A program made the translations under genes and the position numbers. A DNA stretch of 33,886 nt from Acidimicrobiaceae bacterium (lineage in GTDB: Bacteria > Actinomycetota > Acidimicrobiia > Acidimicrobiales > Ilumatobacteraceae): contig CANHST010000006.1 in NCBI GenBank assembly GCA_947463235.1, positions 1 to 33,886 on the forward strand, given 5' to 3'. Below the pieces are notes generated by a model. It saw only the letters and a program-made list of their open reading frames with translations. It did no database searches and had not been told where the DNA came from. Numbering within the stretch: position 1 is the stretch's first letter; each line of letters begins with the position of its first letter. Positions 1-19,324 of this stretch are shown here, piece after piece.

Positions 1-219
1 CACCTTCGATGCGAGCACGAACTCGTCGCGCGGATACGACGCCAACGCTCGACCGAGTCGAGTCTCCGACAGGCCATGTCCGTACTGCGGTGCCGTGTCG
101 AAGAAGCGCACTCCGCCGTCCCACGCAGCAGCAACCGTGGCGGTGGCCTCGTCGTCGGTGATGGCGGCGAATAGGTTCCCCAGCGGGGCAGCACCCAGCC
201 CGAGGCGGTGCGCCGTCAT
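1..219 (-). CDS. Aldo/keto reductase, N-terminal fragment (runs off the window)
   Basis: Reverse strand from ATG at 219 reads MTAHRLGLGAAPLGNLFAAITDDEATATVAAAWDGGVRFFDTAPQYGHGLSETRLGRAL, with the AKR DTAPxYG..E motif; ATG overlaps the stop of the upstream gene. Confidence 0.85.
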   Translation of the reverse strand, partial: MTAHRLGLGAAPLGNLFAAITDDEATATVAAAWDGGVRFFDTAPQYGHGLSETRLGRALASYPRDEFVLASKV

Positions 220-1505: not shown

Positions 1506-1561
1506 GGCACGTCCTGCTGGTCGACGACGCTGCGACAGTAGGCGCGATACTGGGCGCCGAA

Positions 1562-1577
1562 GTGCGCTGGAGCGCAC
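1562..1577. promoter_or_regulatory. Perfect 7-bp inverted repeat (GTGCGCT-GG-AGCGCAC), candidate operator between divergent genes
   Basis: Read directly in the 87-bp gap between the divergent starts at 1505(-) and 1593(+). Confidence 0.5.
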
Positions 1578-1592
1578 ACACAGGGGGACACG

Positions 1593-2303
1593 ATGAGCGG
1601 ACGAGTGGTGGTCATCACCGGAGCAGCGGGTGGCATCGGCAGCGCCATGATGGAGCGCTTCGCAGCGAACGGCGACACCGTCGTGGGCCTCGACCTGGCC
1701 GACGGTTTCGACCTCACCGACCCGGCGCAGTGCACCGCCGCTGCCGACCGGATCGTGACCGAGCACGGGCGCATCGACGTGCTGTGCAACAACGCCGGCA
1801 TCAGCGCCATCGGCGACGTGGTGCAGAGCACCCCCGACGACTGGCAGCGGGTGTTCGCGGTGAATGTCTTCGGCGTCGCCAACATGTCGCGCGCCGTCAT
1901 CCCCCACATGCGCTCCGCAGGCGGTGGCGTCATCGTGAACACGTGCTCCATCGTCGCCTCCGTCGGCTTGGTGCAGCGCGCCGTATACGCCAGTTCAAAG
2001 GGCGCCATCCAGGCACTCACCAAGGCGATGGCAGCCGACGAAGTGCAGCACGGCATTCGCGTGAACTGCGTGTCGCCCGGCACCGTGGAGAGCCCGTGGG
2101 TGCAGCGGCTCGTGGCGGCCACCGAGAACCCCGAAGCCACCTACGCGGCGCTTCGCAAGCGCCAGCCAATGGGCGATCTGGTGAGTTGCGAGACCGTTGC
2201 CGACGCCGTGGTGTATCTCGCCGCACCCACCACCTTCACCACGGGCATCGACCTGTTGGTGGATGGCGGCATCAGCGGCATCCGCATCGTGGACGCATCA
2301 TGA
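1593..2303 (+). CDS. Short-chain dehydrogenase/reductase (SDR)
   Basis: VVVITGAAGGIGSAM Rossmann motif, NNAGIS, YASSKGA catalytic YxxxK, C-terminal DLLVDGGIS. Confidence 0.93.
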   Translation: MSGRVVVITGAAGGIGSAMMERFAANGDTVVGLDLADGFDLTDPAQCTAAADRIVTEHGRIDVLCNNAGISAIGDVVQSTPDDWQRVFAVNVFGVANMSRAVIPHMRSAGGGVIVNTCSIVASVGLVQRAVYASSKGAIQALTKAMAADEVQHGIRVNCVSPGTVESPWVQRLVAATENPEATYAALRKRQPMGDLVSCETVADAVVYLAAPTTFTTGIDLLVDGGISGIRIVDAS

Positions 2304-3379
2304 CGTTGCGCGTCGCTCTGGTGGGCGGGCCGATGTACGACCACCTGTACAGCTTGCTCGCCGATCAGGACGTGGAGATCGTGGTGCACGCCGATCACCC
2401 CACGCTGAACCGCGAGGTCGCCGCAATGCTCGAGCGCGGCGACCGTATCGATGTGCTCGCCACCCACAGCAAGTACGCACCGTCGCAGGCACGGTGGTTG
2501 CAACCGCTGAACGGCGCAGTCGACACCTCGGCGCTGGCACCGTTGGCCGTCGATCTGTGCCGCTTCGACGGCGCTCAGTACTGCGTGCCTCGGCTGATCG
2601 ACGTGCGCATCATGTGGGTGCGTACCGACCGCGTGACTGCAGTGCCGAACACCTGGGACGACCTCGCCGGGCGAGGCATGGTGTTCGGTTTCCCTGGGCG
2701 CGAGTCCGGTCTATTCGGAACGTTCTTCGAACTCGTCGTCGGTGCCGGTGGCCAGTTGTTCGACGACGACGGCCTGCCATGCATCGACTCGCCGGAGGCC
2801 GTGGCCGCAGTGGAACAACTCTGCCGCCTCGCCGCCGCTGCGCCCGCAGACCTGCCGACGTGGCATTACGACCAGGTGGATCGAGCGTTGCTCGACGGAC
2901 GCGTCGATGCGGCTGGCATCTGGCCCGGGGGTTGGGGCCCTATCCGCAACAGCTCACTCGCCAACAAACTGACGCCGCATCCGTACCCGTCCGGCACGCA
3001 TCGGCGCGTCAGCTACGCCGGCTGCCATGCGTGGGCCGTGCCCACCACATGTGCCGATGTGCCCGCCGCTACCAAGCTCGTGTCGTTGCTCACCGGCTTC
3101 GAAGCGAACGCGCTCGATGCTGCAGGGGGCAGCGTCTGTGCGCACATCGGCGCATTCGCCGACGTGAGCCCCGTGAACGAGACCGACCGGCAGCGGCTGG
3201 CCATCACCGCGGAAACCATCCAGACCGCGATGATCACGTATCCGGCCCACCCCCGATTCCCCGAGGTCGAGGATGCCGGTTGGCAGGCCATCCACGACGC
3301 TCTACGCGGCATGCGCACTGCCAAGTCGGCCGTGAAGGAAATCCAGGCCCGAGCGGAAGCCGTGCTCGGCGGCAGCTGA
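2300..3379 (+). CDS. ABC-type extracellular solute-binding protein fold without an obvious signal peptide
   Basis: MTLRVALVGGPMYDHLYSLLADQDVEIVVHAD...; SBP family 1-like motifs (PNTWDDLAGRG, AAGIWPGGWGP, HAWAVPTT). ATGA overlap with the SDR stop. Confidence 0.75.
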   Translation: MTLRVALVGGPMYDHLYSLLADQDVEIVVHADHPTLNREVAAMLERGDRIDVLATHSKYAPSQARWLQPLNGAVDTSALAPLAVDLCRFDGAQYCVPRLIDVRIMWVRTDRVTAVPNTWDDLAGRGMVFGFPGRESGLFGTFFELVVGAGGQLFDDDGLPCIDSPEAVAAVEQLCRLAAAAPADLPTWHYDQVDRALLDGRVDAAGIWPGGWGPIRNSSLANKLTPHPYPSGTHRRVSYAGCHAWAVPTTCADVPAATKLVSLLTGFEANALDAAGGSVCAHIGAFADVSPVNETDRQRLAITAETIQTAMITYPAHPRFPEVEDAGWQAIHDALRGMRTAKSAVKEIQARAEAVLGGS

Positions 3380-3425
3380 CGCCCAGCGTGTCGCGACCCG
3401 TTGAGGGCGGGGATACCATCCGCGT

Positions 3426-4304
3426 ATGGAGCAGCACGGCGGGCACCACCACGGCCACGACGACGGCCATCAGCACGGCCATCAGCACGGCCATCAGCAC
3501 GGCGACGGATTCGACTGGGATGCGATGGCGGATCGCTTGGTGCTCGACGCTGCCATCACCGAACCCATCGTGCACTCGATCACGCCCGAGATCGATGGCC
3601 CAGTGGAGCACGTGCTCGACGTGGGCTGCGGCCCCGGGGAAACGGCGATCACGCTGGCGCTCGCCTTTCCCGATGCAGAAGTGACCGCCATCGATTCCTC
3701 GGAGGCGTTGCTGCAACGAGCCGAGCGCCATGCCGAGCGTCATTCGGTCTCCGATCGCCTCACCGCCCTGCACGGCAACCTCGATGAGCCACTGCCCTCC
3801 ACCGGACCGATGGATCTCATCTGGGCATCGATGGTGTTGCATCACGTCGCCGATCCCATCACCACGCTGCGCCGACTGCGCGATCGCCTTCGCCGGGACG
3901 GCACGCTGGTGATGATCGAATTCGGCGACCTCCCCCGTGTGCTGCCTCCCGACGACCCGTTGATGACGACTGGCACCTGGCAACGGTTTCAACTCGCCAC
4001 TTCGTCCACGCTGACCGCGCGGCTGGGCCTCGACCCGGTGCTGGTCGACTGGCCGGCACTGCTGGCCGAGGCGGGCTTCGACCACATCACCGATGGCAAC
4101 CGCGTGGCGCATCACGCCGCGCCCTTGGCACCGGCGGCGCTCGCGTGGCTGGAAGCGCATGTGCGCCGCGGTATCGACATGGCCGGCGACCTGTTGTCGC
4201 AGACCGATACCAGTGCATTGGCCGAATTCGCGAACGCCGTGCGCCAACGTAATGACCTCACGGTGGAGGCATCTCGCCGCGTACTCACGGCGCGTCCCGC
4301 CTGA
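3426..4304 (+). CDS. Class I SAM-dependent methyltransferase with His-rich N-terminus
   Basis: VEHVLDVGCGPGETAITLA motif I, MDLIWASMVLHHVADP; N-terminus MEQHGGHHHGHDDGHQHGHQHGHQHGDG. Confidence 0.88.
   Translation: MEQHGGHHHGHDDGHQHGHQHGHQHGDGFDWDAMADRLVLDAAITEPIVHSITPEIDGPVEHVLDVGCGPGETAITLALAFPDAEVTAIDSSEALLQRAERHAERHSVSDRLTALHGNLDEPLPSTGPMDLIWASMVLHHVADPITTLRRLRDRLRRDGTLVMIEFGDLPRVLPPDDPLMTTGTWQRFQLATSSTLTARLGLDPVLVDWPALLAEAGFDHITDGNRVAHHAAPLAPAALAWLEAHVRRGIDMAGDLLSQTDTSALAEFANAVRQRNDLTVEASRRVLTARPA
3465..3500 (+). repeat. Three perfect 12-bp tandem units (ggccatcagcac) encoding GHQH
   Basis: Direct reading of 3465-3476, 3477-3488 and 3489-3500. Confidence 0.95.
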
Positions 4305-4371
4305 TCACCGTGGCGAGTGCCACTACACCGTTTGCTAGCCAGATCGGCTCTGGCGAGATACGTTGCAATCA

Positions 4372-6636
4372 ATGAAACCCATCGGCGGACCGGCATCTGG
4401 ATCGGACCCGCCGGTCTTTGCCGCTGAACTGGCTGAATTGTTGCCCTCGGCTGTTGGCGTCGTGGACCTTGAAGGTTTCATCCTGTGGGCCAATGCCGCA
4501 TGCCGAGAACTCATCGGTTGGGACCCCATTGCTCGGCCTCGTGTCCATATCAGCGACGTGATCGATCCCGACATGTATGCCTTGGCACACGAGATACAGC
4601 ACCGCATGGGCCAGGAACCTCACGCCGAGATGAAGATCGCTACACGAATGCGCCGACTGGACAACAGCGCCTTCGATGCCAGCGTGCATGCCCGCACGGT
4701 GCAATTCGGCCCGGAGAACACCACCGGCCTGCTTGGTGTGGTGACCCCCACTCACGAGTCGTTCGACGACAACCCCATCCGGCGCGCAATGGACCTCCAA
4801 CGAGAGTTGGTCTGCGAATGGGCACTGGATGGCAGGATCCTCTCCTGCAACAGGGCGTATCGCGACTATCTCCACAATGGCGAGGAGATGGTGGGTCGCA
4901 ACATCGACGAGTTCGTGCACTGGGAAGAGGGAAGCCACCGCGACGACCTGGTTGGTTATCTCCTCAGCGGCGAGCCGACATATGTCAACACCGGCACCTA
5001 CGACGATGGCCGTTCGATCGAATGGTCGAACACCTTGGTGCGGTCTCCCAACGGCGACGCGATCTCCGTGCTCGCCGTCGGACGTGATGTCACCGAACGG
5101 CTTCGCGCCGAAGAAGTGGTGCGCCGCAACGAGGAACGCTTCCGAACGATGGTCACCTACATCTGGGACTCGATCATGCTCGTCGACCGAGATGGCAACC
5201 TGCTCGACGCAACCTCCTCGTACCGCACCGATCTCGGTCACCCACCGGAATTCTGGGCGCAGAACAGTTTGGTCGACATCGTTCACCCCGACGACCAGAA
5301 GTCCGCGCTGCTCAAGTTGGCGACGCTCGTCGAAGCAGGGCCCATGGCAGAAACCTGGTTCGAGCTGAGAGCCCGTCGAAGCGATGGCACCTACAGCTGG
5401 TTGGAACTCAACGGTGCCAATCTGCTCGACAACCCTGCCGTGAACGCCATCCTCCTCACGGTGCGCAACGTCGACCGCCGCAAGGCGATCGAGAGCGAAC
5501 TCACCGACCGCCACGCCAGAGCCGAAGCGGCATTACGTGAGCGCTCCAGGTTCGTGGCTCAAGTCAGCCACGAACTCCGCAACCCGCTCCACGGCATGCT
5601 CGGACTCAGCGAGATCCTGACGAAGTCGGAGTTGTCACCGGAACTGGCGGAAGCTGCGCGCGCCATCTATCGGCAGAGCACCACTATGCGACACATCGTC
5701 GACGACCTGCTCGACATGGCGCAGCTCGAAGTCGGCACACTGAGAATCTGCCTCGCGGACGTCGATCTGGATGCCGTCTTCCATGACGCCATCGAGACCG
5801 CCCGCGCCATCGTCGGGCCAGATGTGAACCTTCGCTCCAGCGGCCCGACGCCGGAACTGCGCTACGTCCGCGCCGACAGCGACCGGCTTCACCAGGCGAT
5901 CGGCAACCTGCTGTCGAACGCCGGCAAATACAGCGAACGCGGTGAGATTCGCATCACGACATCGCCCGGGGAGCAACCCAGATCCGTCCGAATCAGCGTG
6001 CTGGATTCGGGCGTCGGCATCCAAGCGGCCGATGTGCAACGCCTCTTCGAGCCCTACGAGCGCGGTGCGGACGCTGCCGGTGCAGGCGCAGGCCTTGGCC
6101 TCGCCATCGTGAAGGGAACGGTCGAAGCGATGGGCGGCAACGTGGGTGCGGCACCACGCCCAGAGGGCGGGTCCTGTTTCTGGATCGAACTGCCACTCGC
6201 CGAACCGGGTACCGACGACGCCATCCACGCCCCAGACGCCACCCCACCCCATGGCGTGGCACGGTTCGCAGTGAATGTCCTCGTCGTCGACGACGACCCG
6301 GTGAACCTGCTGTTGGCCCAACTCCAACTCACCGATGTCGCCAAGGGCGTCACCACCGCATCGAGCGGCGAGGCGGCATGGGCGTTGCTCCAGGAGCACC
6401 AATTCGATGCCGCCTTCATCGACGTGCAGATGCCCGGCATGAGCGGACTCGACCTGGTGCAACTCATCCGCGCCATGCCACAGCCTCACCCCTTGGTCAT
6501 CGTGATGACTGCCAGTGCCACAGCAGCCGACAGGGACGCTGCATTGGCCGTCGGTGCAGACGAGTTCCTCGCCAAGCCGGCCACCCGCACCGACATCCTC
6601 GATGCGTTGCGGCAGCGGTTCGACGAAACCGGTTGA
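4372..6636 (+). CDS. Multi-PAS hybrid sensor histidine kinase with C-terminal receiver domain
   Basis: PAS-type repeats (WALDGRILSCNRAYRDYL; GRDVTERLRAEE), H-box AQVSHELRNPLHGML, N-box NLLSNAGKYS, GLGLAIVKG, REC VVDDDPVN...DVQMPGMSG...AKPA. ATG at 4372 preferred over the TTG at 4363. Confidence 0.93.
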   Translation: MKPIGGPASGSDPPVFAAELAELLPSAVGVVDLEGFILWANAACRELIGWDPIARPRVHISDVIDPDMYALAHEIQHRMGQEPHAEMKIATRMRRLDNSAFDASVHARTVQFGPENTTGLLGVVTPTHESFDDNPIRRAMDLQRELVCEWALDGRILSCNRAYRDYLHNGEEMVGRNIDEFVHWEEGSHRDDLVGYLLSGEPTYVNTGTYDDGRSIEWSNTLVRSPNGDAISVLAVGRDVTERLRAEEVVRRNEERFRTMVTYIWDSIMLVDRDGNLLDATSSYRTDLGHPPEFWAQNSLVDIVHPDDQKSALLKLATLVEAGPMAETWFELRARRSDGTYSWLELNGANLLDNPAVNAILLTVRNVDRRKAIESELTDRHARAEAALRERSRFVAQVSHELRNPLHGMLGLSEILTKSELSPELAEAARAIYRQSTTMRHIVDDLLDMAQLEVGTLRICLADVDLDAVFHDAIETARAIVGPDVNLRSSGPTPELRYVRADSDRLHQAIGNLLSNAGKYSERGEIRITTSPGEQPRSVRISVLDSGVGIQAADVQRLFEPYERGADAAGAGAGLGLAIVKGTVEAMGGNVGAAPRPEGGSCFWIELPLAEPGTDDAIHAPDATPPHGVARFAVNVLVVDDDPVNLLLAQLQLTDVAKGVTTASSGEAAWALLQEHQFDAAFIDVQMPGMSGLDLVQLIRAMPQPHPLVIVMTASATAADRDAALAVGADEFLAKPATRTDILDALRQRFDETG

Positions 6637-7949: not shown

Positions 7950-8453
7950 TCAGCGAGGGTCGTCGGACACACCTTCAGCCGACATCGACCTCTCCACGAT
8001 GGCCCGCAGCGACGGCCAAGCGGCAGCGAACCCGGCGTGCAAGGGTCGTGCGCCGACGTCGTCGAGTGGCAGCCAGGCAACAGCGTCGGTCTCGAAGTTC
8101 ACCGAGGACCCGAACCGATGGTCCACCTCCAACACGACGGTGGTGTAACTCCAGTCGTCAGCCGGGGCGAACACGTACTCCCCCAGCACCCGATGGTGCT
8201 CCGGGATGTCGCCGACCTCTTCGGATGCCTCGCGCAGGGCTGCCTCGAATGGCGTCTCGCCCTCATCGATGGCCCCACCGGCGCAACTCCAGGTGCCGCC
8301 TTCGTGTGCCATGGCAGACCGCTGCTGCAGCATCACCTTCGGTGCGCCGTCCTCCCACACGACGAAGACCACACCGGCGGCGCCGAACACGCCCCACCGG
8401 ACATGGCCATCCGAGCACCGCACGAAACCGTCACCCGAACGTCGATGCCACAT
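7950..8453 (-). CDS. NUDIX hydrolase
   Basis: NUDIX box GGAIDEGETPFEAALREASEEVGDI. Confidence 0.92.
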   Translation of the reverse strand: MWHRRSGDGFVRCSDGHVRWGVFGAAGVVFVVWEDGAPKVMLQQRSAMAHEGGTWSCAGGAIDEGETPFEAALREASEEVGDIPEHHRVLGEYVFAPADDWSYTTVVLEVDHRFGSSVNFETDAVAWLPLDDVGARPLHAGFAAAWPSLRAIVERSMSAEGVSDDPR

Positions 8454-8475
8454 GGCGGCCGACCCTACGCAATGG

Positions 8476-8514
8476 CGAGGGTTTCGGCGTACCCGTAGGA
8501 CACCGAAACCCTCG
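8476..8514. terminator. Stem-loop with perfect 12-bp arms (CGAGGGTTTCGG / CCGAAACCCTCG)
   Basis: Inverted repeat located between the 3' end of the 8535-10115(-) gene and the start of the NUDIX gene; no clear U-tract. Confidence 0.6.
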
Positions 8515-8534
8515 ACATGGGAACCCTGACGGGT

Positions 8535-10115
8535 TCAGCGGAGATTGCTGGGGCGTCGGCGCAACGAGAGCACCAGGTAGCCCAGATCCAGGAACATCAA
8601 TGCGATCAGCACCTGCACCAGCGTGGAACCCGCACCGGTGACCACCAGTTGGCCCGGGGTCGTGGTGGTGGGCCCCCCGGAGGCGACCTCGGTGGTGGTC
8701 GTGGCCGGGATCGTGGTGGTGGTCGTGGCCGTCGACACGCCGACAGCCTTGGTGCTCACGAACGACACCGCCTTGGTGGGCTTGCAGACGAAGACCACCG
8801 GGCTCGGCAGGCCGATCTTCACGCTCACGTTGGCGCCGTAGAGGCGGAAGTCGATCTTGCCGGTGCGGGCGGTCCAGTGCATGTTCGGCACGTCGAACTT
8901 CACCGTCGAGGGCAACGCCTGGCCGTTCGAGGTCTTCACCGGAATCACCAGCGCGATGTTGTCGGCGTCTTGGGTGACCTGAGCCGTGTTCGTGCCCGTG
9001 ATGGCGAGGTCGAGCGTGCCATCGATCGAGGTGCCGGGATTGATGAGCCCGAAGTTGATGCCGGTCTGGAAGACACCGGCCGGGATGGTGACGCTCCACT
9101 TCATCTTCGTCAGTTCGAACTTCGAGTCCGCAGGCACTTCGCCCGGTGCCGTACCCGTCGCGGTGAAGGTGAGTTCACTGAGATCGGGCGTGACGCTGTT
9201 CTTGCACGAGGTGACGTAGCTAGCCGAGCCGGCAACCGGCGGCGGCAATGTGGTGGTGGTGGCGGGCACCGTGGTGGCAGGCGCTGTCGTTGCCGGAGCG
9301 GTCGTGGCGGGCGCCGTGGTGCCGGGTGCCGTCGTGCCCGACGGGATGGTGGTGGTGGATCCGGCCACGGTGGTCGTGGTGCCACCACCAACGGATGCCG
9401 AAGTCGTTGCGAAGATGCCGGGGGTGGACGGGGTGAAGGATGCGCCACCCACGGCCGAGGTGCCGCCCTGGCAGTCGAAGTTGGCCTTGATGAGGCCGCC
9501 GGCCACCTGGGCGCTGATGAACACACCACCGGCCGGGTTGGTCACGCCACCCGACACCTGTCCGGCGGCAATGGGCGGCAGCGAACCGGGCCCGCCCTGC
9601 GAGAAGTTCACTGCGCCGCCGGTCGGCGTCCAGGCCGTATCGGGCAGCGAGACATCGACGTTGAGGGGAGTGGCGTTCTCGTCGCCGTTGCCCGGGATGC
9701 CGTTCGGGTCGGTGACCGTCGTGGTGACCGTGGTGGCGAACTGCACCATCTTCTTCACATCGGTGGTACCGGTGGCAGTGATGGATACCCATCCCTTCAC
9801 CGGGATCGAGTTGTTGCCCACCGTCAGCAGACCGAGGTTGTAGCCGGCGATCAGCAGCGTGGCAGGAACCGCCGCAGTGAACTTCACACCACTCAGAGTG
9901 ACGGAGTTCGCCGGGTCGGCGGCACCACTCCACGCAGCCGTTCCCGTCAAGCCGACGCCGATGTCGCTAAATGTGCCGGAGGCATTGCTCTTGCATGAAT
10001 TTGTGGCAGCAAGTGCCACAGCTGTGCGACGAGTTGGCCCCACGACGATCGCCGCCGCGAGGGCAATCGATAGCATGACCAGCACGATGACGGCGCCGCG
10101 TTGGTGGCTTCGCAT
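8535..10115 (-). CDS. Secreted surface protein: two Cys-bounded repeat domains, PATT-rich linkers, C-terminal sorting-signal-like tail
   Basis: N-terminal hydrophobic segment (VIVLVMLSIALAAAIVV), domain NSCKSN...NFDCQ, linker TTAPATTAPATTAPATTVPATTTTLPPP, second domain SCKNS...FVCKP, tail GQLVVTGAGSTLVQVLIALMFLDLGYLVLSLRRRPSNLR. Confidence 0.8.
   Translation of the reverse strand: MRSHQRGAVIVLVMLSIALAAAIVVGPTRRTAVALAATNSCKSNASGTFSDIGVGLTGTAAWSGAADPANSVTLSGVKFTAAVPATLLIAGYNLGLLTVGNNSIPVKGWVSITATGTTDVKKMVQFATTVTTTVTDPNGIPGNGDENATPLNVDVSLPDTAWTPTGGAVNFSQGGPGSLPPIAAGQVSGGVTNPAGGVFISAQVAGGLIKANFDCQGGTSAVGGASFTPSTPGIFATTSASVGGGTTTTVAGSTTTIPSGTTAPGTTAPATTAPATTAPATTVPATTTTLPPPVAGSASYVTSCKNSVTPDLSELTFTATGTAPGEVPADSKFELTKMKWSVTIPAGVFQTGINFGLINPGTSIDGTLDLAITGTNTAQVTQDADNIALVIPVKTSNGQALPSTVKFDVPNMHWTARTGKIDFRLYGANVSVKIGLPSPVVFVCKPTKAVSFVSTKAVGVSTATTTTTIPATTTTEVASGGPTTTTPGQLVVTGAGSTLVQVLIALMFLDLGYLVLSLRRRPSNLR
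9256..9345 (-). repeat. About six imperfect 15-bp coding repeats (Ala/Pro/Thr linker)
   Basis: Consecutive units such as gtggtggcgggcacc, gtggtggcaggcgct, gtcgtggcgggcgcc, gtggtgccgggtgcc, encoding (A/G)TTAPATT. Confidence 0.85.
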
Positions 10116-10471
10116 GATCGTTCCCCTTGAAACTGTGTGGCTCGGAGACCGCCTCCCCAGGCAGTCACCCGGCAGTTCACACCCCGTTCAGGGGTGGTGT
10201 CAAGGGCTGAAGACCATTGGTAACTGTCAAGGTACCCAAAAGACGCCCTTGACGACCGACCGTCTCCTGCTGGTATGTTGCCGATTGTCTCACCACCAAC
10301 AGTGGTGGGGCACACCACGGGAGGGGACGTCGGTAGACGACTCGTGGATGCGATGGGGACAGTTCACTCGACAGTCACGGTTTTCCGTTCTGTCAACTCG
10401 TCGCATTCCGGGTGTACCCACACGATCTCACCGGTGAATGAAGTTCCGAGCCACCAACATCGAACGAGGGA

Positions 10472-12256
10472 GTGATCCTCTTGCAAGCATCCACTCGGCG
10501 TAAAAGCGCCATCGCAGCAGTCGCCGGTCTGTTGACCGCGCTGGTTGCGGTCGGAGTCACCACGGGAACAGCATCTGCTGCGCCCGGCACGCTCACGACC
10601 GTCAACGCCTGCCAGAACAACGCCAACGGCAACTGGGCCGACATCTCCTGGACCCTGAACGGTACGGCGTCGCCGAACCCGCAGACGCTCGGCTCGGGGA
10701 ACGTCACCCTGTCCGGCGGCAGCATCGTCGGCGAGATTCCGGCCGCCATTCTCGTGGCCGGTTACAACCTCGGCGTGCTCAGCGTCGGCACGAACCCGAT
10801 CCCCACCAAGATCTGGGTCGGCCGTTCGGCCAGCAACGTCGACACCGGCGCAGGCGTGAAGGGCACGCTCACGAAGGTCGACGTGCTCGATCTTCCGACG
10901 CAGCTGTCCACCTTCATCACCGACCCGGACGGCGTGCCCGGTGGCACCGGCCCCGGCGGCGCTGACGAGACGGCCACGCCCATCAGCGTGAACCGGCCGC
11001 TGCCCGACTGGACGGTCACCCCGCTCGGCGGCAACGTGGAGTTCAAGCAGGCTGGCCCCGGCGCCATCGGCCCGCTTCCCATCGGCGCTGGTGGCGCCAA
11101 CACCGCCACCACCGGCAGCATCTTCACCCAGTCCGTCGTCGCCGGCGGCCTGATCAAGGTGAACTTCGACTGCCAGCCTGGTGCCTCGGTTGCTGCTGTG
11201 CCCCCGGCCACCACCACCTCGTTCACGCCTGCTGCCAGCATCGCGTCGTTCGAGACCGGTGTTGTCGTGGCACCGCCCACCGCTCCTGTCTGCTCCAACG
11301 AGACGCTCAGCGTCGGCGTGGGCCAGAACGCCACGGTGGACCTCACCAACAACTGCACCGACGTGAACGAGGCGCAGGGTGGCGGTAGCCCCTTCACCTA
11401 CCAGATCGGCGCAGTCTCGGCCGGCACGCTCACCCCGACCGCAACGGCCGGCATCTACACCTACGCCGCACCGGCAACCGACCCGGGCGCTCCGGTCGTC
11501 GTGAACTTCACGGCCACCGACGCAACGAGCCTCGTCAGCGCCACGGCCACCATCACCGCCACCATCCTGGCCAACACCTGTGATGCCACCTTGGCTTCCT
11601 GCAACCTCACCGAGATCATCGTGCAGCCGGTCATCGGCACCACCATGAAGCTCGAGAAGGTTCCCGGTGTGGTCGTCATGTCGCCGGTCATCTTGAACGG
11701 TCGTGAGCAGGTCTCCACCGGTGCGCTGCAGACCCTCACGGTCACCAACGCCCGCGGTACTGCCGCTGCATGGTCGGTCACCGCCTACGCCACCGACCTC
11801 GGTGCAGCAGGTGCACCCACGTTCTCGCCGCTGCCCGGCGTGACCGTGGCGCTCTGCTCGCGAGCTGGTGCCGGTCCGCTGATCGCCAACCCGGTGCTCG
11901 CCGCAACGGTCGCCAGCGATCGTCTCTGCATCCCCGGTGACAACCTCGGTTGGACGCCCAGCGCCGCCATCACCCACAACGACATCCCCGGTGATGTCGC
12001 CCAGGTGACCGCCGGTGCCGCCAGCGCCCCGACCCCCGCCGACTGGCTGGCCGGTCTGGTCGCCGCTGGCAACACCAACGACCCCGGCGTGGGCGTGGAC
12101 GGCCTCGGCGGTCTGCTCGGCTCGAGGACGCTGTGCTCTGCCCCGGTGAACCACTCGGGTGGCACGTTCACCTGCAACGCCTCCCTGTACCTCGGTGTCC
12201 CGGCTTCGGCCGGCGCCGGTACGTACACCGGTGGCATCGTGCTGACGCTCGCCTGA
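10472..12256 (+). CDS. Secreted WxL-like surface protein with N-terminal domain shared with the 8535-10115 protein and a central Ig-like segment
   Basis: Signal peptide (RRKSAIAAVAGLLTALVAVGVTTGTASA); N-domain NACQNN...VAGGLIKVNFDCQ; C-terminal LTVTNARGTAAAWSVTAYATDLG and terminal AGTYTGGIVLTLA, matching the layout of the WxL domain. GTG start. Confidence 0.75.
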   Translation: MILLQASTRRKSAIAAVAGLLTALVAVGVTTGTASAAPGTLTTVNACQNNANGNWADISWTLNGTASPNPQTLGSGNVTLSGGSIVGEIPAAILVAGYNLGVLSVGTNPIPTKIWVGRSASNVDTGAGVKGTLTKVDVLDLPTQLSTFITDPDGVPGGTGPGGADETATPISVNRPLPDWTVTPLGGNVEFKQAGPGAIGPLPIGAGGANTATTGSIFTQSVVAGGLIKVNFDCQPGASVAAVPPATTTSFTPAASIASFETGVVVAPPTAPVCSNETLSVGVGQNATVDLTNNCTDVNEAQGGGSPFTYQIGAVSAGTLTPTATAGIYTYAAPATDPGAPVVVNFTATDATSLVSATATITATILANTCDATLASCNLTEIIVQPVIGTTMKLEKVPGVVVMSPVILNGREQVSTGALQTLTVTNARGTAAAWSVTAYATDLGAAGAPTFSPLPGVTVALCSRAGAGPLIANPVLAATVASDRLCIPGDNLGWTPSAAITHNDIPGDVAQVTAGAASAPTPADWLAGLVAAGNTNDPGVGVDGLGGLLGSRTLCSAPVNHSGGTFTCNASLYLGVPASAGAGTYTGGIVLTLA

Positions 12257-12298
12257 CATTCGTCAGGTAAGCATGCACACCTGAAGTTCAGTAACTGA

Positions 12299-12334
12299 GC
12301 GGGTGGGACCCCGGGCAACCGGGATCCCACCCGC
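12299..12334 (+). terminator. Strong stem-loop (16-bp arms, one mismatch, GCAA loop)
   Basis: gcgggtgggaccccgg-gcaa-ccgggatcccacccgc, 42 bp after the WxL-like gene stop. Confidence 0.7.
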
Positions 12335-12397
12335 TTCTCACTGAAAGACCGTTCAACTGCAACGGCTTTCTCACGAAGCAAAAGGACAGGACGACAC

Positions 12398-13450
12398 GTG
12401 GAGCTACGACGGAAGCGAAACGGAACAATGGGAGCACTGGCGCTGAGCGCGGTAGTGCTGTTCGGGGCCTTCACCCCTGCGTCAGCCATCTCACCGACCT
12501 CGATCTCCCCGGCCTCGATCTCTCCGGCTGCAGTCACGCCCCCCAGCGACAGCGTGCCAGCCGATGAAACCGCTCCGCCCGACGCAGGAGCGTTCGCCGT
12601 GCGCCCCTACAGCGCCGACAGCGTGGGCGGGCGCGACTACTTCATCTACACACTGAAGACCGGCACGGTCTACGGCGACAAGGTCACGGTCTCCAACGAC
12701 AGCGACCAGGAGGCCACCTACGCCGTCTACGCCACCGATGCGGTGAACACCAACGACGGATCCTTCAGCCTGCTGCGCGAGGAAGACAAGCCCAAGGACG
12801 TCGGTTCCTGGGTCGAGCTTGGCGCCACGCAGTACACACTGAAGCCGCACACCGAGGTCACCATCCCCTTCAGCGTCACCGTGCCCAACGACGCGATCTC
12901 CGGCGACCATGTGGGCGCCATCGTCGCCCAGAAGATCGCCGATGCCTCCAACCCCAACGGCATCGGCCTGAACGTGCGCGTGCGCGTCGGGGCCCGGCTC
13001 TACGTGCGCATCGAAGGCGCCACCAACCCATCGCTGGCCGTCGACTCGTTCACGATGTCGTACGACGCCCCGGCCAATCCGTTCGGCACCGGCACTGCGC
13101 ACGTGAACTACACGCTCACCAACACCGGCAACGTGCGCCTCACCCCCATGGCCACCCTGAAACTCGCCGGCATCTTCGGTCTGGGTGAAAAGAACTTCCC
13201 CGACCGACAGATCCCCGAACTCCTGCCGGGTAACTCCATCCAGATCGCGGAAGTGATGCTGGGCGTGAAGCCGTACCTACGGCTCACCGCCGACCTCGAC
13301 ATCACAGCCCCGGACGAAGCCGTTGCCGTCCACAGCACCATCACCCAGTGGGCTATTCCGTGGCTCGGCGTCGCAGTGGTTGCCCTCATCATCGTGGCGC
13401 TGATCGTGCGCAGCATCGTCAAGCGTCGACGCAGGCGGGCGACTGCATGA
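12398..13450 (+). CDS. DUF916/WxL-interacting-protein-like secreted protein with C-terminal TM
   Basis: Signal peptide; YFIYTLKTGTVYGDKVTVSNDSDQEATYAVYATDA...; SVTVPNDAISGDHVGAIVAQ; C-terminal TM WLGVAVVALIIVALIV followed by KRRRRR. GTG start with AAGGA upstream. Confidence 0.8.
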   Translation: MELRRKRNGTMGALALSAVVLFGAFTPASAISPTSISPASISPAAVTPPSDSVPADETAPPDAGAFAVRPYSADSVGGRDYFIYTLKTGTVYGDKVTVSNDSDQEATYAVYATDAVNTNDGSFSLLREEDKPKDVGSWVELGATQYTLKPHTEVTIPFSVTVPNDAISGDHVGAIVAQKIADASNPNGIGLNVRVRVGARLYVRIEGATNPSLAVDSFTMSYDAPANPFGTGTAHVNYTLTNTGNVRLTPMATLKLAGIFGLGEKNFPDRQIPELLPGNSIQIAEVMLGVKPYLRLTADLDITAPDEAVAVHSTITQWAIPWLGVAVVALIIVALIVRSIVKRRRRRATA

Positions 13451-14823
13451 CCGCTGCTCGGTCTCGGGTGATCTGGACGACCTACCTCGCCGGCACGCTG
13501 CTGGCGGTGGGCTCGCTCGTCGCGCCCGTAGCCGCAGCGTCGCCCACCACCGTGCCGCCGTCCACCGACGAGGGCGCCGCTGCCCCCGCCATCGTGGTGG
13601 AGGAGCAACTCTTCAGCGACCAAGCAGTGCTGGAAGGTGCCACCTTCAAGGTGGGTGGCACGGGTTGGCCCGCCGACACCCTCATCCAGCTCGAACTGTG
13701 TGGCGCCGAGGCACGATCCGGTACCAGCGATTGCGCCTCCGATGCGGCCCAGGTGGTGGCCAGTAATGCCAGGGGAACCTTCGAGGGTCGACTCGCCCTG
13801 GTGATCCCTCCGTCACCGTGTCCATGCGTGGTGCGCGCACTCAGCCAGACCACCACCGACACCGCGTTCGCCCCCATCGAGATTCCTGGGGCCCCCACCT
13901 CGCACGCGGGCGACGGCGATGTCACTGCACCTGCCCTTCGCCGGCTCGAAGCCTCCAACGTCGAGCTCAGCGGCAGCGACAACCTGCGCACCTGGATGGG
14001 CGCCAGCCCGCAACGCGTGTTCATGTTCGAGTTGAAGAACACCGGCTCGGTGGCCGTCACCAACGCCACCGTCACGATGACCGCTGGCCCATCCGACAAC
14101 CCGACCGGCTTCGTGACGCCGGTGAAGATCGAACGCATGGAGGTGGGACAGACGCGGAAGATCTCCGTGCCCATCGAGTTCCCGAACCTCTCGTACGGAG
14201 AGCAGACGGTGCGGGCCACGTTGAACGGCACCTCGATGCCCACCGCGTTCGCGGCCACCACCACCACGCACCCCTGGTTGCTGATCATCATTCCGATCGT
14301 GTTGGTACTGCAGTTGTTGCTGCTCCTCGTCCGCAATGCGCTGCGGCGGCGCCTGCACGACGCGGAGGTCGTCCCTGCAGCGGTGGATTCTTCCGTGCCG
14401 GCCGACGACTCGTTGATCTGCGTCGTGGAGTTCACCGAGGCCGACCCAAACGCCACACCGAATGTGCAGCATCGAACCCAGGTGGTGCGCAGCATCAACG
14501 AGGTGCACCAGATGGTGCTCAATGCGCTGAAAGTGGACGAACAGGGCCAACCTGTTGCCGTGGATGGGCCCGAGCGAGTGATCAACACGATCACGGTGCT
14601 CGCGGACGCCGATGCTCGCGTGGGCGCCTCCCATCACGCGTGCGATGTGCTGTGCACCTGGATCGAAGGCACCTACGCCAGCAGTTCGCACCCATCGGCG
14701 CGTTCGCTCACGCTGCGCCGCCACAACAGCGGCACCAGCACCAATGCGTCCGCCGCCTCCGGGCTGGGCATGGTGCCCCTGTCCGTGCTGGTTCGCGCCC
14801 CCCATGTGCGGGCCGTGGCCTGA
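13447..14823 (+). CDS. Membrane protein: extracellular beta-rich domains, single TM, cytoplasmic domain of about 150 aa
   Basis: Signal-like N-terminus; VGGTGWPADTLIQLELCG (neocarzinostatin/IPT-like strand pattern); FELKNTGSVAVTNATVTM; TM WLLIIIPIVLVLQLLLLLV. ATGA overlap with the DUF916-like gene. Confidence 0.8.
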   Translation: MTAARSRVIWTTYLAGTLLAVGSLVAPVAAASPTTVPPSTDEGAAAPAIVVEEQLFSDQAVLEGATFKVGGTGWPADTLIQLELCGAEARSGTSDCASDAAQVVASNARGTFEGRLALVIPPSPCPCVVRALSQTTTDTAFAPIEIPGAPTSHAGDGDVTAPALRRLEASNVELSGSDNLRTWMGASPQRVFMFELKNTGSVAVTNATVTMTAGPSDNPTGFVTPVKIERMEVGQTRKISVPIEFPNLSYGEQTVRATLNGTSMPTAFAATTTTHPWLLIIIPIVLVLQLLLLLVRNALRRRLHDAEVVPAAVDSSVPADDSLICVVEFTEADPNATPNVQHRTQVVRSINEVHQMVLNALKVDEQGQPVAVDGPERVINTITVLADADARVGASHHACDVLCTWIEGTYASSSHPSARSLTLRRHNSGTSTNASAASGLGMVPLSVLVRAPHVRAVA

Positions 14824-14828
14824 GCCAA

Positions 14829-14863
14829 CGACAACCCGAACGACACCCGAACGACAGCCCGAA
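14829..14863 (+). repeat. Three imperfect 11-12-bp tandem units (cgaca[ag]cccgaa) just after a stop codon
   Basis: cgacaacccgaa / cgacacccgaa / cgacagcccgaa. Confidence 0.7.
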
Positions 14864-14886
14864 CGGCGAACGGACTGAAAACAAAA

Positions 14887-14921
14887 GAAGCGGCAGCCAC
14901 GATAGATCGAGCCGCCGCTTC
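14887..14921 (+). terminator. Stem-loop GAAGCGGCAGC ... GCCGCCGCTTC
   Basis: Inverted repeat with 10/11 matching positions, downstream of the 13447-14823 gene. Confidence 0.6.
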
Positions 14922-15107
14922 CTCTCCGAGCCACCGGAGAACGTCCTCAGTGTAACGAACTCGATAGCGGATCGACCAGCACTATTCGGTGTGAATTTCG
15001 TGAAGGCAGCACACGGACGCTGCTCGGGCGAACACACCCAGCGCGTGCGAAGCGGTACGCTCGGCGTCGCCGTCACGCGGCCATCAGGTGATGGGGAGCC
15101 ACCAACC

Positions 15108-16397
15108 ATGGGTCTGTTCAGCAAGAAGCCAAAGCCGAGCACCAGCGCCACCAACGACGATGCGCCCGCGGGGGCGATGCCGGCGCCAACACCCCAGACG
15201 GCCCCTGTTGCAGCGCCCGTGCCCCCTCCCACACCTGCGCCGGCACCCGCTGCGCCGCCCGCCGCGTCGAGTTGGGGGTCGAAGAAGGCCAAGAAGGCCG
15301 CCATCGACCCGGTCGACTTCCTGAACCTGCGCGCTGAGCTGATGGAGGTAAAGGCCCGCCTCATGGCCGCCGAGCAATCGCGTGCCATCGTCGAAAGCCG
15401 CCTGGCCGCGCTCGATGCCACAGCGCTGGCGCTGTCATCGGATCAAGCCGGCAGTAGTGGCGCCGCCGAGCGCCTCGCCGACCTGGAAGCGCGCGTGCTC
15501 GCAATCGGCTCCGGCCGTGCTGCCACCGACCCGGGGCAGTTGGAGGACACCGCCGCACGCGACATGGCGGCAGCGCTGCAGATCCGCATCGACGAATTGG
15601 CCGGCAAGGTCGCCGCCAAGGGCGACGACGCCGAGCTCCTTGCGAAGATCGCCTCGCTCGAGACGCAGGTGGCCGAGGCCGCCGCCAACGCGGAGGCAGC
15701 TCGAGCTGCAGCTGCCGCGCAGCCCGATGTGGCCGCCCCGTCGCCGCTGCTCGGCTCCGCTTCCACAGCGGCACCCGACCCCGAGATGGCGGCCAAAATC
15801 GACGCCATCGGTCTTCGCTTGCACGAGCTCGACGACCTTGCTCTGCGTGTCGCCCAGATCGACGTGCTCACGGGGCAACTCTCACAGCTCAATGCCCGCG
15901 TCACGGCCCAGGCAGAGTTCGGCGCACAACTCAGTGCCATGCGCGACCGCATCACCGAGCTGCAGTCCACCCCGGACTCCGGCGACCCGGCAGCTGCCGC
16001 TGCCAACGATCCGGAACTTCGCGACCAGATGACCGGCCTCACCAGTCGTCTGGCCGCCACCGAGGCATTGGCCTCGCAGCTCGGCGCCCTCGCCGAACGA
16101 GTGGCCGCCACCGATGCCAACGCCCAACAGACCACCGCACAGTTGGCGGCGCTCGAACAGCGGGTGGATTCCGTGGGCACCGAGCTGGCCAACCAGATCA
16201 GCGAGTTGGGTCGCGATATCGACGGTCTTGCCGAGCGCACCGCCGACGTGGCATCCGGCACGGTGAGCGACGAGGTGATGGCAGCACTGCGTAGCGGCCA
16301 GATCAAGCTCGCCAACGAACAGGCCCGGTACGAGATCGCCTTCCGCGAAGATCTCGCGGCGCTGGCCGAACACGTCCGCCGCCAACCCCGCTCCTAA
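15108..16397 (+). CDS. Ala-rich coiled-coil protein with Pro/Ala-rich N-terminal segment
   Basis: MGLFSKKPKPSTSATNDD...; long heptad-like region (LAALDATALAL..., LAALEQRVDSVGTELANQISELGRDIDGLAERT). Start at ATG 15108, inside the longer ORF. Confidence 0.8.
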   Translation: MGLFSKKPKPSTSATNDDAPAGAMPAPTPQTAPVAAPVPPPTPAPAPAAPPAASSWGSKKAKKAAIDPVDFLNLRAELMEVKARLMAAEQSRAIVESRLAALDATALALSSDQAGSSGAAERLADLEARVLAIGSGRAATDPGQLEDTAARDMAAALQIRIDELAGKVAAKGDDAELLAKIASLETQVAEAAANAEAARAAAAAQPDVAAPSPLLGSASTAAPDPEMAAKIDAIGLRLHELDDLALRVAQIDVLTGQLSQLNARVTAQAEFGAQLSAMRDRITELQSTPDSGDPAAAAANDPELRDQMTGLTSRLAATEALASQLGALAERVAATDANAQQTTAQLAALEQRVDSVGTELANQISELGRDIDGLAERTADVASGTVSDEVMAALRSGQIKLANEQARYEIAFREDLAALAEHVRRQPRS

Positions 16398-16468
16398 CCC
16401 CTCCGCCCTGTCGCTTCGGGGGTTCGCTGTACCCGCCGAATGCGGTAACGCTCGAGGCGGGGCTTGGG

Positions 16469-19324
16469 TCAGCTGAGCAGGTCGAGGGCCTGCTGCACGA
16501 GGTCGCGGGCTTGGGCTTCCTTGTCGGCGTACAGACCGAGGTCGCCGGCCTTCAACGCCGCTTCGGCCTCATTGAACAGTTGCTCTGCCTGCTGCAGCAG
16601 TTCTTGGGCCGTGGTGCCGGTGACAGGCGGCTTGGGTCCCCCGTCCGATGGCGTGCTGCCCGATACGTCGCCAACCTCGGCGGAGAAGCCGGGGAAGAGC
16701 TGCGACATGGCATCACCGATGCTGTTGCCGATGGCCACCTTGCCGTTGTAGTTGGCGATCATGCGACGCAGCAGCGGTTGGCCCGAGGTCTCGGACTCCA
16801 CGTACAGCGGAGCAATCCAGACCACACCACCGGCAACGTTCAGCATCTGCAGATCGCCGAACGCCACCTCCGAACCCTGTTGGCCGAGCAGCGTGATGGC
16901 CTCGCTCACCTTCGGATCCGTGGCCATCGATGCACCGATGGTGTTCGGGCCTTCCGGTAGCGCATCGTTCGGGAACTCGTATGCGATCAGTTGGCCATAG
17001 CTGCCGGGGTCGCTGCCCGCGGTCATGTAGGCGATGAGTTCCTTGCGCTGGTCGGTCGTGCTGAACGGCTGGAACGGTCGGTACAGCTGGAACGACGACG
17101 CGTCGTCGCCGGAGGGGTGGAACATCGTGTAGTACGGAGCGAATCGCGCCGCCGTGCTCTCGCCTGCGAAGTCGTTTGGCTGCCCCGATTCGGTGGTGGT
17201 GATGGTGGAAGCTGCGCCGCCCACCACATCGCCCGGTGAGGCCGCCGCAGCCAATGCCACCGACCATGCACCACGACGGTCGAAGAAGTCGTTCGCGTCG
17301 AGGCGGTACTTGGAGTACGCCGATGTCTGCACCCGGAAGAGTTCCTCCGGATAACGGAGATGCTGAACGAGGTCGTCGGACATTGCGCTCGCCGGCTGGA
17401 ACAGATCGGGGAACGCCGCACGCCACACCTGCAACACCGGATCGGTGTCGTCCATGGCGAACAGTTCCACCGAACCGTCGTACGCGTCGACGGTGGCCTT
17501 CACACTGTTGCGCACATAGTTGAACGCCTGGTCCAACCCGCCACCTGCGATGAGATCGCGGCTGTCGGCGAACTGCGAGTACGGATACCGCGAACTTGTC
17601 GAGTACCCATCGATGACCCAGACGATGCGTCCACCGGCCACCACCGGGTACGGGTCGCCATCGAACGACAGGAAGGGCGCAACCGTCTGCACCCTCTCCC
17701 GCACGTCGCGCACCGTCACGAAGCGCGACTGATCGTTGATGGCGCTCGAGCCGAGAAGGTTGTAGTCGAACTCGGCCAGCGCGAAGGCAAGCCGCCGAAT
17801 GCCCGAATTCAACTGCACACCTGCAGTGCCCGAGTACGGCTGGGCATCATCGATGCCCTGACACGGCTGCTCCGTCACCGAGGTCTTCAGCACGGCATAC
17901 CCCGACAGCGTGGGGCTGAAGTACATCTGCGGCTGATCCACCTTGGTGATGTCGTCGCGGTACACCGGCTTGCCGTCGCTCTGGATCTGGGCAGCCAACG
18001 CGCTCGCCAGACCACAACCGTGCGTGTTGATGAGGTGCGTGCCCTGCCAACTCTTGTTACCCACCTGGTTCAGGTCGAGCTCGCGAGCGCCCACGATCAC
18101 CTGCTGCGGCCGGCCATCGACCACGTAACGATCGGGGTCGAGGTCGGCGATGGTCATGCCCGGCTGGCCCTCATCGGTGCGGAAACGGGTCTCCATTTTC
18201 TCGTCGGGCTTGATGAGGCGCGTATCGCTGAGCGCCGCCACGTTGGTCTCGACCTCGTTCGTACTGAGCGTCTCGAACTTGGCGGGCTTCACCGTCACGC
18301 CATCGATGCCCAGCGCATGGCGTGTGGCTTCGATGTTGTGGGCGATGTAGGCGGACTCCTTGTCCTTCTTGTTGGGGTTCACCACCAACGACTGGATGAC
18401 CGCTGGGTAGATGACACCACCGATCAAGGCCACCACCGCCCACAGCGCCGAGGCCACGATGGCTGGCCGCCACTTGTCGGTCTTCAGCGTGCTGAGGAAC
18501 AGCACCGCCGAGAGCAGTGCGATGAGACCCAGCAACAGCACAGCGGGAAGTTGCGCATTCACCACCGTGTAGTTCGGGCCGGTGAACGAACCGCGGTTGG
18601 CGTTGGTGAGCTCGTAGCGCATCACCCAGTAATCGCCCGCCTTCAGAATCGCCATGATGGCAAGCAGCACCGCAAGGTGCGCCTTCGTGGCGCGGCGGAT
18701 CTTCGGCTTCGGCGGCGCCAACATCACGCCACCCGACAGGACGTGGGTGGCCAGCACGAGCAGCGTGACGAAGCCAACCGCCAGGAACATCCAGTCGAGC
18801 ACGAACGTCACGAACGGCAGCTTGAACATGTAGAAGCCGACATCGTTGCCGAACTGCGCGTCGCTGATGCCGAACGACTTGCTGTTCCGGAACATCAACC
18901 AGTCTTGCCACCGGCCAACGGCAGGGGCGGCGAAAAGCAGCGCGAATACGCCCGCCACGCCGAAGCGGAGCATGCGGAGTCGATGACCGAAGAACTCATG
19001 GAATCGTTCGACGACGGGGTGGGTGTTCGCCGTGAACGCTGCAGGCGCCAGTCGATCGGCGATCACCAGGTTCAAGATGGCGAGCACAGCGAAGACCACG
19101 CCAAACACCACGAACAGGGTCACCTTGGCCCGGATCTCGCCCCAGAACACGTCGGAACGGCCGAGCGAGTCGTACCACAGCAGGTCCGTGTAGAAGCCGG
19201 CGAGGAACCGCGCCGACAACAGAAGGCCGACCACGAAGACAGCGGCAATGATGATGAACGCACGACCCCGGTCGCTCACGCGACGCTGGCGGGCGGAGCG
19301 GGGGAGATCCGCAGGGTTCTGCAC
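16469..19324 (-). CDS. UPF0182 family large membrane protein
   Basis: 951 aa; N-terminal TM helices with FYTDLLWYDSLGRSDVFWGEIRAKV; conserved GTHLINTHGCGLA, YPYSQ, NYVRNSVKATVDAYDG. Confidence 0.93.
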   Translation of the reverse strand: MQNPADLPRSARQRRVSDRGRAFIIIAAVFVVGLLLSARFLAGFYTDLLWYDSLGRSDVFWGEIRAKVTLFVVFGVVFAVLAILNLVIADRLAPAAFTANTHPVVERFHEFFGHRLRMLRFGVAGVFALLFAAPAVGRWQDWLMFRNSKSFGISDAQFGNDVGFYMFKLPFVTFVLDWMFLAVGFVTLLVLATHVLSGGVMLAPPKPKIRRATKAHLAVLLAIMAILKAGDYWVMRYELTNANRGSFTGPNYTVVNAQLPAVLLLGLIALLSAVLFLSTLKTDKWRPAIVASALWAVVALIGGVIYPAVIQSLVVNPNKKDKESAYIAHNIEATRHALGIDGVTVKPAKFETLSTNEVETNVAALSDTRLIKPDEKMETRFRTDEGQPGMTIADLDPDRYVVDGRPQQVIVGARELDLNQVGNKSWQGTHLINTHGCGLASALAAQIQSDGKPVYRDDITKVDQPQMYFSPTLSGYAVLKTSVTEQPCQGIDDAQPYSGTAGVQLNSGIRRLAFALAEFDYNLLGSSAINDQSRFVTVRDVRERVQTVAPFLSFDGDPYPVVAGGRIVWVIDGYSTSSRYPYSQFADSRDLIAGGGLDQAFNYVRNSVKATVDAYDGSVELFAMDDTDPVLQVWRAAFPDLFQPASAMSDDLVQHLRYPEELFRVQTSAYSKYRLDANDFFDRRGAWSVALAAAASPGDVVGGAASTITTTESGQPNDFAGESTAARFAPYYTMFHPSGDDASSFQLYRPFQPFSTTDQRKELIAYMTAGSDPGSYGQLIAYEFPNDALPEGPNTIGASMATDPKVSEAITLLGQQGSEVAFGDLQMLNVAGGVVWIAPLYVESETSGQPLLRRMIANYNGKVAIGNSIGDAMSQLFPGFSAEVGDVSGSTPSDGGPKPPVTGTTAQELLQQAEQLFNEAEAALKAGDLGLYADKEAQARDLVQQALDLLS

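Follow-up and report, generated by a model that had tools for sequence, protein, structure and literature searches.

WxL surface systems have been described as nearly confined to Bacilli, mainly gut commensals, and have been explained through host binding (PMC9772566, PMC10599100); a WxL cluster has been defined as one WxL-interacting protein (WxLIP) gene plus at least two WxL genes. In Enterococcus faecium, Enterococcus faecalis (elr) and Listeria, a secreted protein with a C-terminal WxL-type domain is encoded on the same strand as, and adjacent to, a membrane-anchored WxLIP of the DUF916 family (PF06030); gut bacteria such as Enterococcus retain proteins on the cell wall with this pair. The csc clusters (cscA-D) of Lactiplantibacillus plantarum comprise CscA, a DUF916 protein with a transmembrane (TM) anchor, CscB, the large WxL protein CscC, and CscD, an LPxTG-type protein (PMC1534035). 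The DNA analysed here (the window) was a 33,886-nucleotide (nt) stretch of an Acidimicrobiaceae bacterium (GCA_947463235.1, contig CANHST010000006.1, positions 1 to 33,886), which is a single contig (G000:C6) of an incomplete genome. A sequence-only reading of this stretch had placed a WxL-like surface protein next to a DUF916/WxLIP-like partner. The locus likely encodes an actinobacterial form of the WxL/WxLIP (Csc) complex at the cell surface.

The pair resembles the Enterococcus and Listeria systems in the placement and secretion of the WxL-type protein and in the adjacent membrane-anchored partner. It differs from them in having a single WxL protein in place of a small and a large one, in the loss of the second WxL motif and gain of an LGWTP motif, in an unrecognised DUF3324 (HBD) domain, in an extra third membrane protein, and in its free-living, high-GC host. 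A WxLIP-long WxL complex has been solved for E. faecium (PDB 9i25). Relative to the csc clusters, the putative counterparts are the WxLIP (CscA), the large WxL-like protein (CscC) and a divergently encoded LVVTG protein (CscD); no CscB is present. CscD has 90-140 residues and lies in the operon, whereas the LVVTG protein has 526 residues, is divergently encoded and has one domain in common with the WxL-like protein. Plasmid pairs of Streptomyces, Clavibacter, Cellulosimicrobium and Arthrobacter also have a WxL-type gene directly upstream of DUF916, as in the window, but have no third protein and have carbohydrate-active enzyme genes as neighbours; those records name DUF916, but its WxL partner appears in them as a hypothetical protein or under another domain.

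The WxLIP partner and the WxL-type domain

Open reading frames were present where the pair had been placed (10472-12256, 594 amino acids (aa); 12398-13450, 350 aa), and the second is predicted to encode a WxL-interacting protein of the DUF916 family. The product matched PF06030 WxLIP_PGBD directly (E=2.7e-12; 47.2 bits against a curated cut-off of 27.3) and matched the solved E. faecium WxLIP1 (EfmWxLIP1, from PDB 9i25, an entry described as a WxLIP bound to a long WxL) with E=7.2e-5. A nine-sequence alignment of the window WxLIP and its relatives was compared with seven Firmicutes WxLIPs using hhalign, giving 95.6% probability along the full mature protein as far as the TM helix; this alignment passed through the HBD-equivalent region. 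The domain plan comprised a signal peptide, the PGBD, a second beta domain, a C-terminal TM helix and an Arg/Lys tail. The signal peptide and C-terminal TM segment foreseen by the sequence-only reading were recovered as a hydrophobic N-terminal signal and a helix (residues 319-337; hydropathy 2.88) that precedes KRRRRR. The N-terminal motif described for Firmicutes WxLIP, NQIDKxxxYFDLK (PMC10599100), was not found at the aligned place, which read GGRDYFIYTLK and shared only YF and a later Leu-Lys.

The 10472-12256 product had a signal peptide, an N-terminal domain, an immunoglobulin (Ig)-like middle region (weak Big_9 match in relative L091) and, as read from the profile comparisons below, a diverged WxL-type domain at its C terminus, adjoining the WxLIP gene. 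The C-terminal sequence quoted previously, LTVTNARGTAAAWSVTAYATDLG...AGTYTGGIVLTLA, was confirmed. A profile built from 16 WxL-type domains of other actinobacteria, with the window left out, matched residues 352-593 with 48.2 bits (E=1.7e-13), and 2000 shuffled versions of the protein gave no match; this score was what remained after bias correction had removed 31.5 bits. By BLASTP, the domain matched the WxL domain of an Actinomadura flavalba protein in the same cassette position (E=1e-10), and that protein passes the cut-off of the Pfam WxL family, PF13731. Cassette relatives do exceed this cut-off, for example L092 (27.5 bits against 25). With hhalign, the window subfamily reached 98.4% against Actinomadura/Thermomonospora WxL domains and 98.5% against small actinobacterial WxL domains; these two sets in turn reached 95.2% and 97.3%, respectively, against Firmicutes WxL, and the controls (WxLIP and third protein) gave about 0-2%. 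The claimed pairing was thus upheld by PF06030 directly and, for the WxL side, via intermediate profiles.

The domain contained VTNARGTAAAWSV (first motif W-S-V), DNLGWTP and a C-terminal strand YTGGIVLTLA lacking a second Trp. The WxL layout proposed from the sequence stood as far as the W-S-V motif and the domain type are concerned; since one W-x-[LVI] motif is kept and the second is lost, the domain is a variant and not a canonical dual-WxL domain. The first W-x-[LVIA] was kept in 52/56 actinobacterial WxL domains and a Trp occurred within the last 16 residues in 2/56, against a Trp within the last 22 residues in 10/13 Firmicutes comparison proteins; these are regular-expression readings with unequal end windows, so the counts are approximate. 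Because 54 of the 56 sampled domains also lack it, loss of the second motif is a general actinobacterial trait and not a quirk of the window protein. At L051 (G121:C17, 7777-9024), a WxL and a WxLIP in one 415-aa frame were considered as a natural fusion; this was rejected, a frameshift or assembly indel being likelier, because the WxL C-terminal strand is missing there, and the locus was not used as evidence.

Distribution of the pair in Actinomycetota

PF06030 was found in 33 of 399 sampled Actinomycetota genomes (about 8%), usually with a WxL gene just upstream. At class level it was found in 17/198 genomes, and PF13731 matches adjoined many of those sites. Among 26 phylum loci that were left out of profile building, a WxL-type gene lay upstream on the same strand within the fetched flank in 20; one of the six without it starts too near a contig end, leaving 20 of 25 usable loci. 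In a WxLIP tree (midpoint root), the sampled Firmicutes formed a separate clade. The pair is widespread in Actinomycetota, including free-living freshwater Acidimicrobiia, as a lineage separate from the sampled Firmicutes. Its presence in a high-GC host, which the sequence-only reading had judged unusual, was confirmed, but the pairing is not unusual in Actinomycetota and is less exotic than had been supposed, with DUF916 proteins already annotated on plasmids of the four actinomycete genera named above. Conservation of the pair in relatives, put forward as a check, held for the class, genus, phylum and third-gene loci.

Within the genus, the cassette was carried by 4 of 15 genomes searched (own genome included), with the WxL-like proteins 71-97% identical, and the layout of divergent gene, WxL-like gene, WxLIP gene and third gene was the same in the three relatives. 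Farther afield, the culturable Actinomadura flavalba, A. hibisca and Thermomonospora echinospora have the cassette. The closest named relative locus was L089 (CAIXIJ010000008.1), from a metagenome-assembled genome of an uncultured Acidimicrobiaceae; the WxL-like protein of G208, on the same contig as L089, is 97% identical to that of the window.

Other arrangements were also seen. A second cassette lies in the own genome (L045, G000:C119, 1-8883; Table 1), and genes in L055-L057, L059 and L061 are arranged similarly; L055 has a PBP_like_2 match, and in L057 a sortase precedes PstB. Another class-level type (L046, L047, L048, L049, L052) has a small WxL upstream, the WxLIP, and then a membrane protein of 520-625 aa with Ig-like domains (NPCBM_assoc/FixG_C-like in L046), which replaces the CGxEARxGSxDC protein described below. 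Actinomycete plasmid pairs in L065, L066 and L067 adjoin genes with GH43, LamG and RICIN domains, which fits a carbohydrate-related use. A DUF916 protein 52% identical to E. faecium WxLIP1 was found in a Klebsiella pneumoniae plasmid record (CP069367.1, 102082-102453; H17), an odd host and possibly contamination.

The third gene, the intercistronic hairpin and the divergent gene

The third gene and the hairpin, the more unusual parts of the locus, went unremarked in the sequence-only reading, the span of which (to 14823) included the third gene. The third gene likely starts at ATG 13447, in a 4-base overlap (ATGA) with the WxLIP stop. Its product has a signal peptide, two Ig-like ectodomains with CGAEARSGTSDC...CPC, a TM helix and a cytoplasmic tail of about 160 aa, the long tail being a feature of the window subfamily. 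Invariant residues in the family alignment include C-G-x-x-A-R-x-G-x-x-D-C and C-P-C, and the gene appears to define an undescribed membrane-protein family with a CGxEARxGSxDC...CPC motif, which looks new. The AlphaFold2 model (pLDDT 82.8, pTM 0.51) showed two beta domains, and a fold search returned many Ig-like matches (transglutaminase, RbmA, WxLIP) of low TM-score that were not diagnostic. The Cys-containing region of the first ectodomain had a weak likeness to the neocarzinostatin family (Pfam E=0.00015; NCBIfam best member 5.3e-6), below the cut-offs of PF00960 (22.2 bits against 25) and NF040680. Unlike neocarzinostatin, the third protein is membrane-anchored, lies in a WxL cassette, has a second Ig-like domain and shows no sign of genes for enediyne biosynthesis in its neighbourhood.

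When 85,488 genomes were scanned with the third-gene motif alone, 22 loci were returned, of which 21 reach far enough upstream to test for a WxLIP and 18 for a WxL. A WxLIP was upstream in 21/21 and a WxL in 18/18, in the order WxL, WxLIP, third gene on one strand. Selection of these loci relied on nothing but the third gene; the WxL profile used for the second count included the window and some overlapping loci, which leaves part of the 18 dependent on that profile. Third-gene loci clustered strongly in the WxLIP tree (2 label changes, compared with 23 after shuffling). No match to the third protein was found on plasmids.

The gap between the WxL and WxLIP genes folded with z=-5.5. The stem aligned in three relatives, where sequence changes preserved pairing, and most WxL-WxLIP gaps at class level contained such a structure formed by different sequences. 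Of the class-set WxL genes, 14/15 had at least 14 pairs in the 110 nt that follow the stop codon, against 10/73 background co-directional gaps (Fisher p=4e-9), the 14-pair threshold having been picked after the first loci were seen. For the independent phylum loci the count was 10/24 against the same background (p=0.0055), so the hairpin is not universal. At least 15 pairs were present in each of the 18 third-gene loci that include a WxL end, several of these loci duplicating class loci, and in L093 shuffled sequences reached an equal count; at least 13 pairs were found in 4/5 Firmicutes WxL-WxLIP gaps. A strong hairpin of varying sequence at this position appears to be a new observation. Predicted terminators were marked in csc clusters by Siezen et al. 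(PMC1534035), so the hairpin is most plainly read as a terminator or attenuator. A promoter and terminator scan gave nothing beyond expectation, using a terminator pattern that requires a T-run and is hence blind to the hairpin, and an Rfam search of 8300-16500 gave no match.

The N-terminal domains of the divergent and WxL-like proteins are homologous (E=3.8e-35, 40% identity; E=2.4e-36, 45% in a second comparison). Outside close relatives, no other copy of this domain was found among 148 class genomes sampled (E<=0.001). The divergent protein ends in LVVTG, a hydrophobic stretch and an Arg-rich (RRR) tail, and LVVTG/LVRTG is retained in three relatives. The motif resembles a sortase sorting signal, yet is not LPxTG; four sortase-domain genes are present in the own genome, and the protein is probably sortase-anchored. 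Downstream of the cassette, a gene at 14980-16397 encodes a long coiled-coil, probably cytosolic protein starting MGLFSKKPKP, and keeps its gene order in L086 and L087.

Table 1. Coordinates of features in the window and in the second cassette of the same genome (L045)
Location	Feature	Coordinates	Strand	Basis
Window	Divergent secreted protein, 526 aa	8535..10115	-	Open reading frame; homology to N-terminal domain of WxL-like protein; LVVTG-type C terminus
Window	Large WxL-like secreted protein, 594 aa	10472..12256	+	Open reading frame; conservation in genus; hydropathy
Window	N-terminal domain of WxL-like protein, also in divergent gene	10577..11260	+	Homology search
Window	Predicted diverged WxL-type domain	11579..12253	+	Profile, BLASTP, hhalign, motif reading; AlphaFold2
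Window	Stem-loop GAGCGGGTGGGACCCCGGGCAACCGGGATCCCACCCGCTT between WxL and WxLIP genes	12297..12336	+	Folding z=-5.5; pairing kept in relatives
Window	Predicted WxLIP (DUF916 family), 350 aa	12398..13450	+	PF06030; EfmWxLIP1 match; hhalign
Window	Third cassette protein, 458 aa	13447..14823	+	Family alignment; co-occurrence; AlphaFold2
L045	PstB-like C terminus	1-255		
L045	Secreted protein resembling phosphate-binding PBPs	474-1778		
L045	Large fn3/WxL protein	1835-3745		
L045	WxLIP	3787-4971		
L045	Third protein	4968-5939		

Proposed function and alternative explanations

By analogy with the Firmicutes systems, the cassette most likely serves free-living Acidimicrobiia as a display complex that is docked at the wall and tethered to the membrane. 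The 594-aa protein would be secreted, and its C-terminal WxL-type beta-sandwich would dock on the ectodomain of the adjacent WxLIP. The TM helix and Arg-rich tail of the WxLIP would fix it in the bacterial membrane. The domain pair would sit at the peptidoglycan, with the N-terminal domain of the WxL protein displayed outward. Translation of the third protein overlaps that of the WxLIP, and the third protein is probably an additional subunit of the complex, likewise anchored in the membrane; the divergent gene would supply a probably sortase-anchored protein that bears this outward-facing domain too. The stem-loop that follows the WxL gene probably keeps the membrane partners encoded downstream at a lower expression level than the WxL protein. 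In Firmicutes, AlphaFold predicts a WxLIP hairpin that completes the WxL sheet (PMC10599100). A more specific model is put forward only tentatively: WxL, WxLIP and the third protein, the last as an obligate member, would form a distinct three-part actinobacterial complex in which the WxLIP completes an incomplete pilin-like WxL sandwich and the hairpin sets the subunit ratio, giving donor-strand-like display in free-living Actinomycetota.

Several results weigh against homology of the WxL domain and against a conventional WxL cluster, and some of them favour a reading in which this domain is an unrelated Ig-like or pilin-like sandwich, its WxL likeness being convergent or compositional, so that only the DUF916 partner is real, as a general membrane-bound surface protein. 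Of the two Pfam families proposed for checking the pair, PF06030 matched as above, but PF13731 matched neither the window protein nor its domain. A direct search with a Firmicutes WxL profile (ten proteins) gave the window 5.5 bits, within shuffle range, and direct hhalign comparison of the window subfamily with Firmicutes WxL gave just 11.9%; with no direct signal, homology of the domain is carried by the intermediates. The second Trp-x-Leu motif is missing, and the domain is compositionally biased. Its AlphaFold2 model is of middling quality (pLDDT 67.5, pTM 0.70), and its best fold match was not significant (E=0.045); the closest fold neighbours were not WxL domains, several listed matches being chaperone-usher pilins, which was taken as suggestive. 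A PDB profile search with the WxL alignment returned no matches. No match to Pfam HBD (DUF3324) was found in the second domain of the WxLIP, and 10472-12256 was the only called gene in the window to pass the WxL profiles. The unrelated-sandwich reading is nevertheless improbable: the profile score survives bias correction and no shuffle of the same composition gives a match, the BLASTP match is to a protein in the same cassette position that lies over the PF13731 cut-off, and profile controls stay at about 1%.

If the pair is real, its job might be capture and degradation of polysaccharide rather than general adhesion or display. Sugar acquisition was proposed for csc clusters by Siezen et al. 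2006 (PMC1534035), and the CAZyme-type neighbours of the plasmid copies point the same way, but Pfam finds no carbohydrate-active domain in the window cassette proteins, and the second own-genome copy is linked instead to PstB and a PBP-like gene; this use is considered rather unlikely here. The role usually given to WxL proteins, host adhesion or virulence, with the WxLIP TM helix entering the host membrane as proposed for Firmicutes (PMC10599100), is highly improbable for this locus. The named relatives are lake, reservoir and groundwater metagenome-assembled genomes (by isolate name) together with Actinomadura/Thermomonospora strains, and the HBD is not recognised in the WxLIP. The Arg-rich tail directly after the TM helix is what would be expected of a stop-transfer anchor, and suggests that the WxLIP is anchored in the bacterium's own membrane and not in a host membrane; anchoring in the own membrane was also supposed for CscA (Siezen et al. 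2006, PMC1534035).

Because the pair is widespread in Actinomycetota, free-living freshwater Acidimicrobiia among them, wall display is the likelier general function, with host binding a local use. The system may extend beyond the role that textbooks give it in gut bacteria, and the cassette with the third protein would provide a defined gene set for studying how the wall holds WxL proteins.

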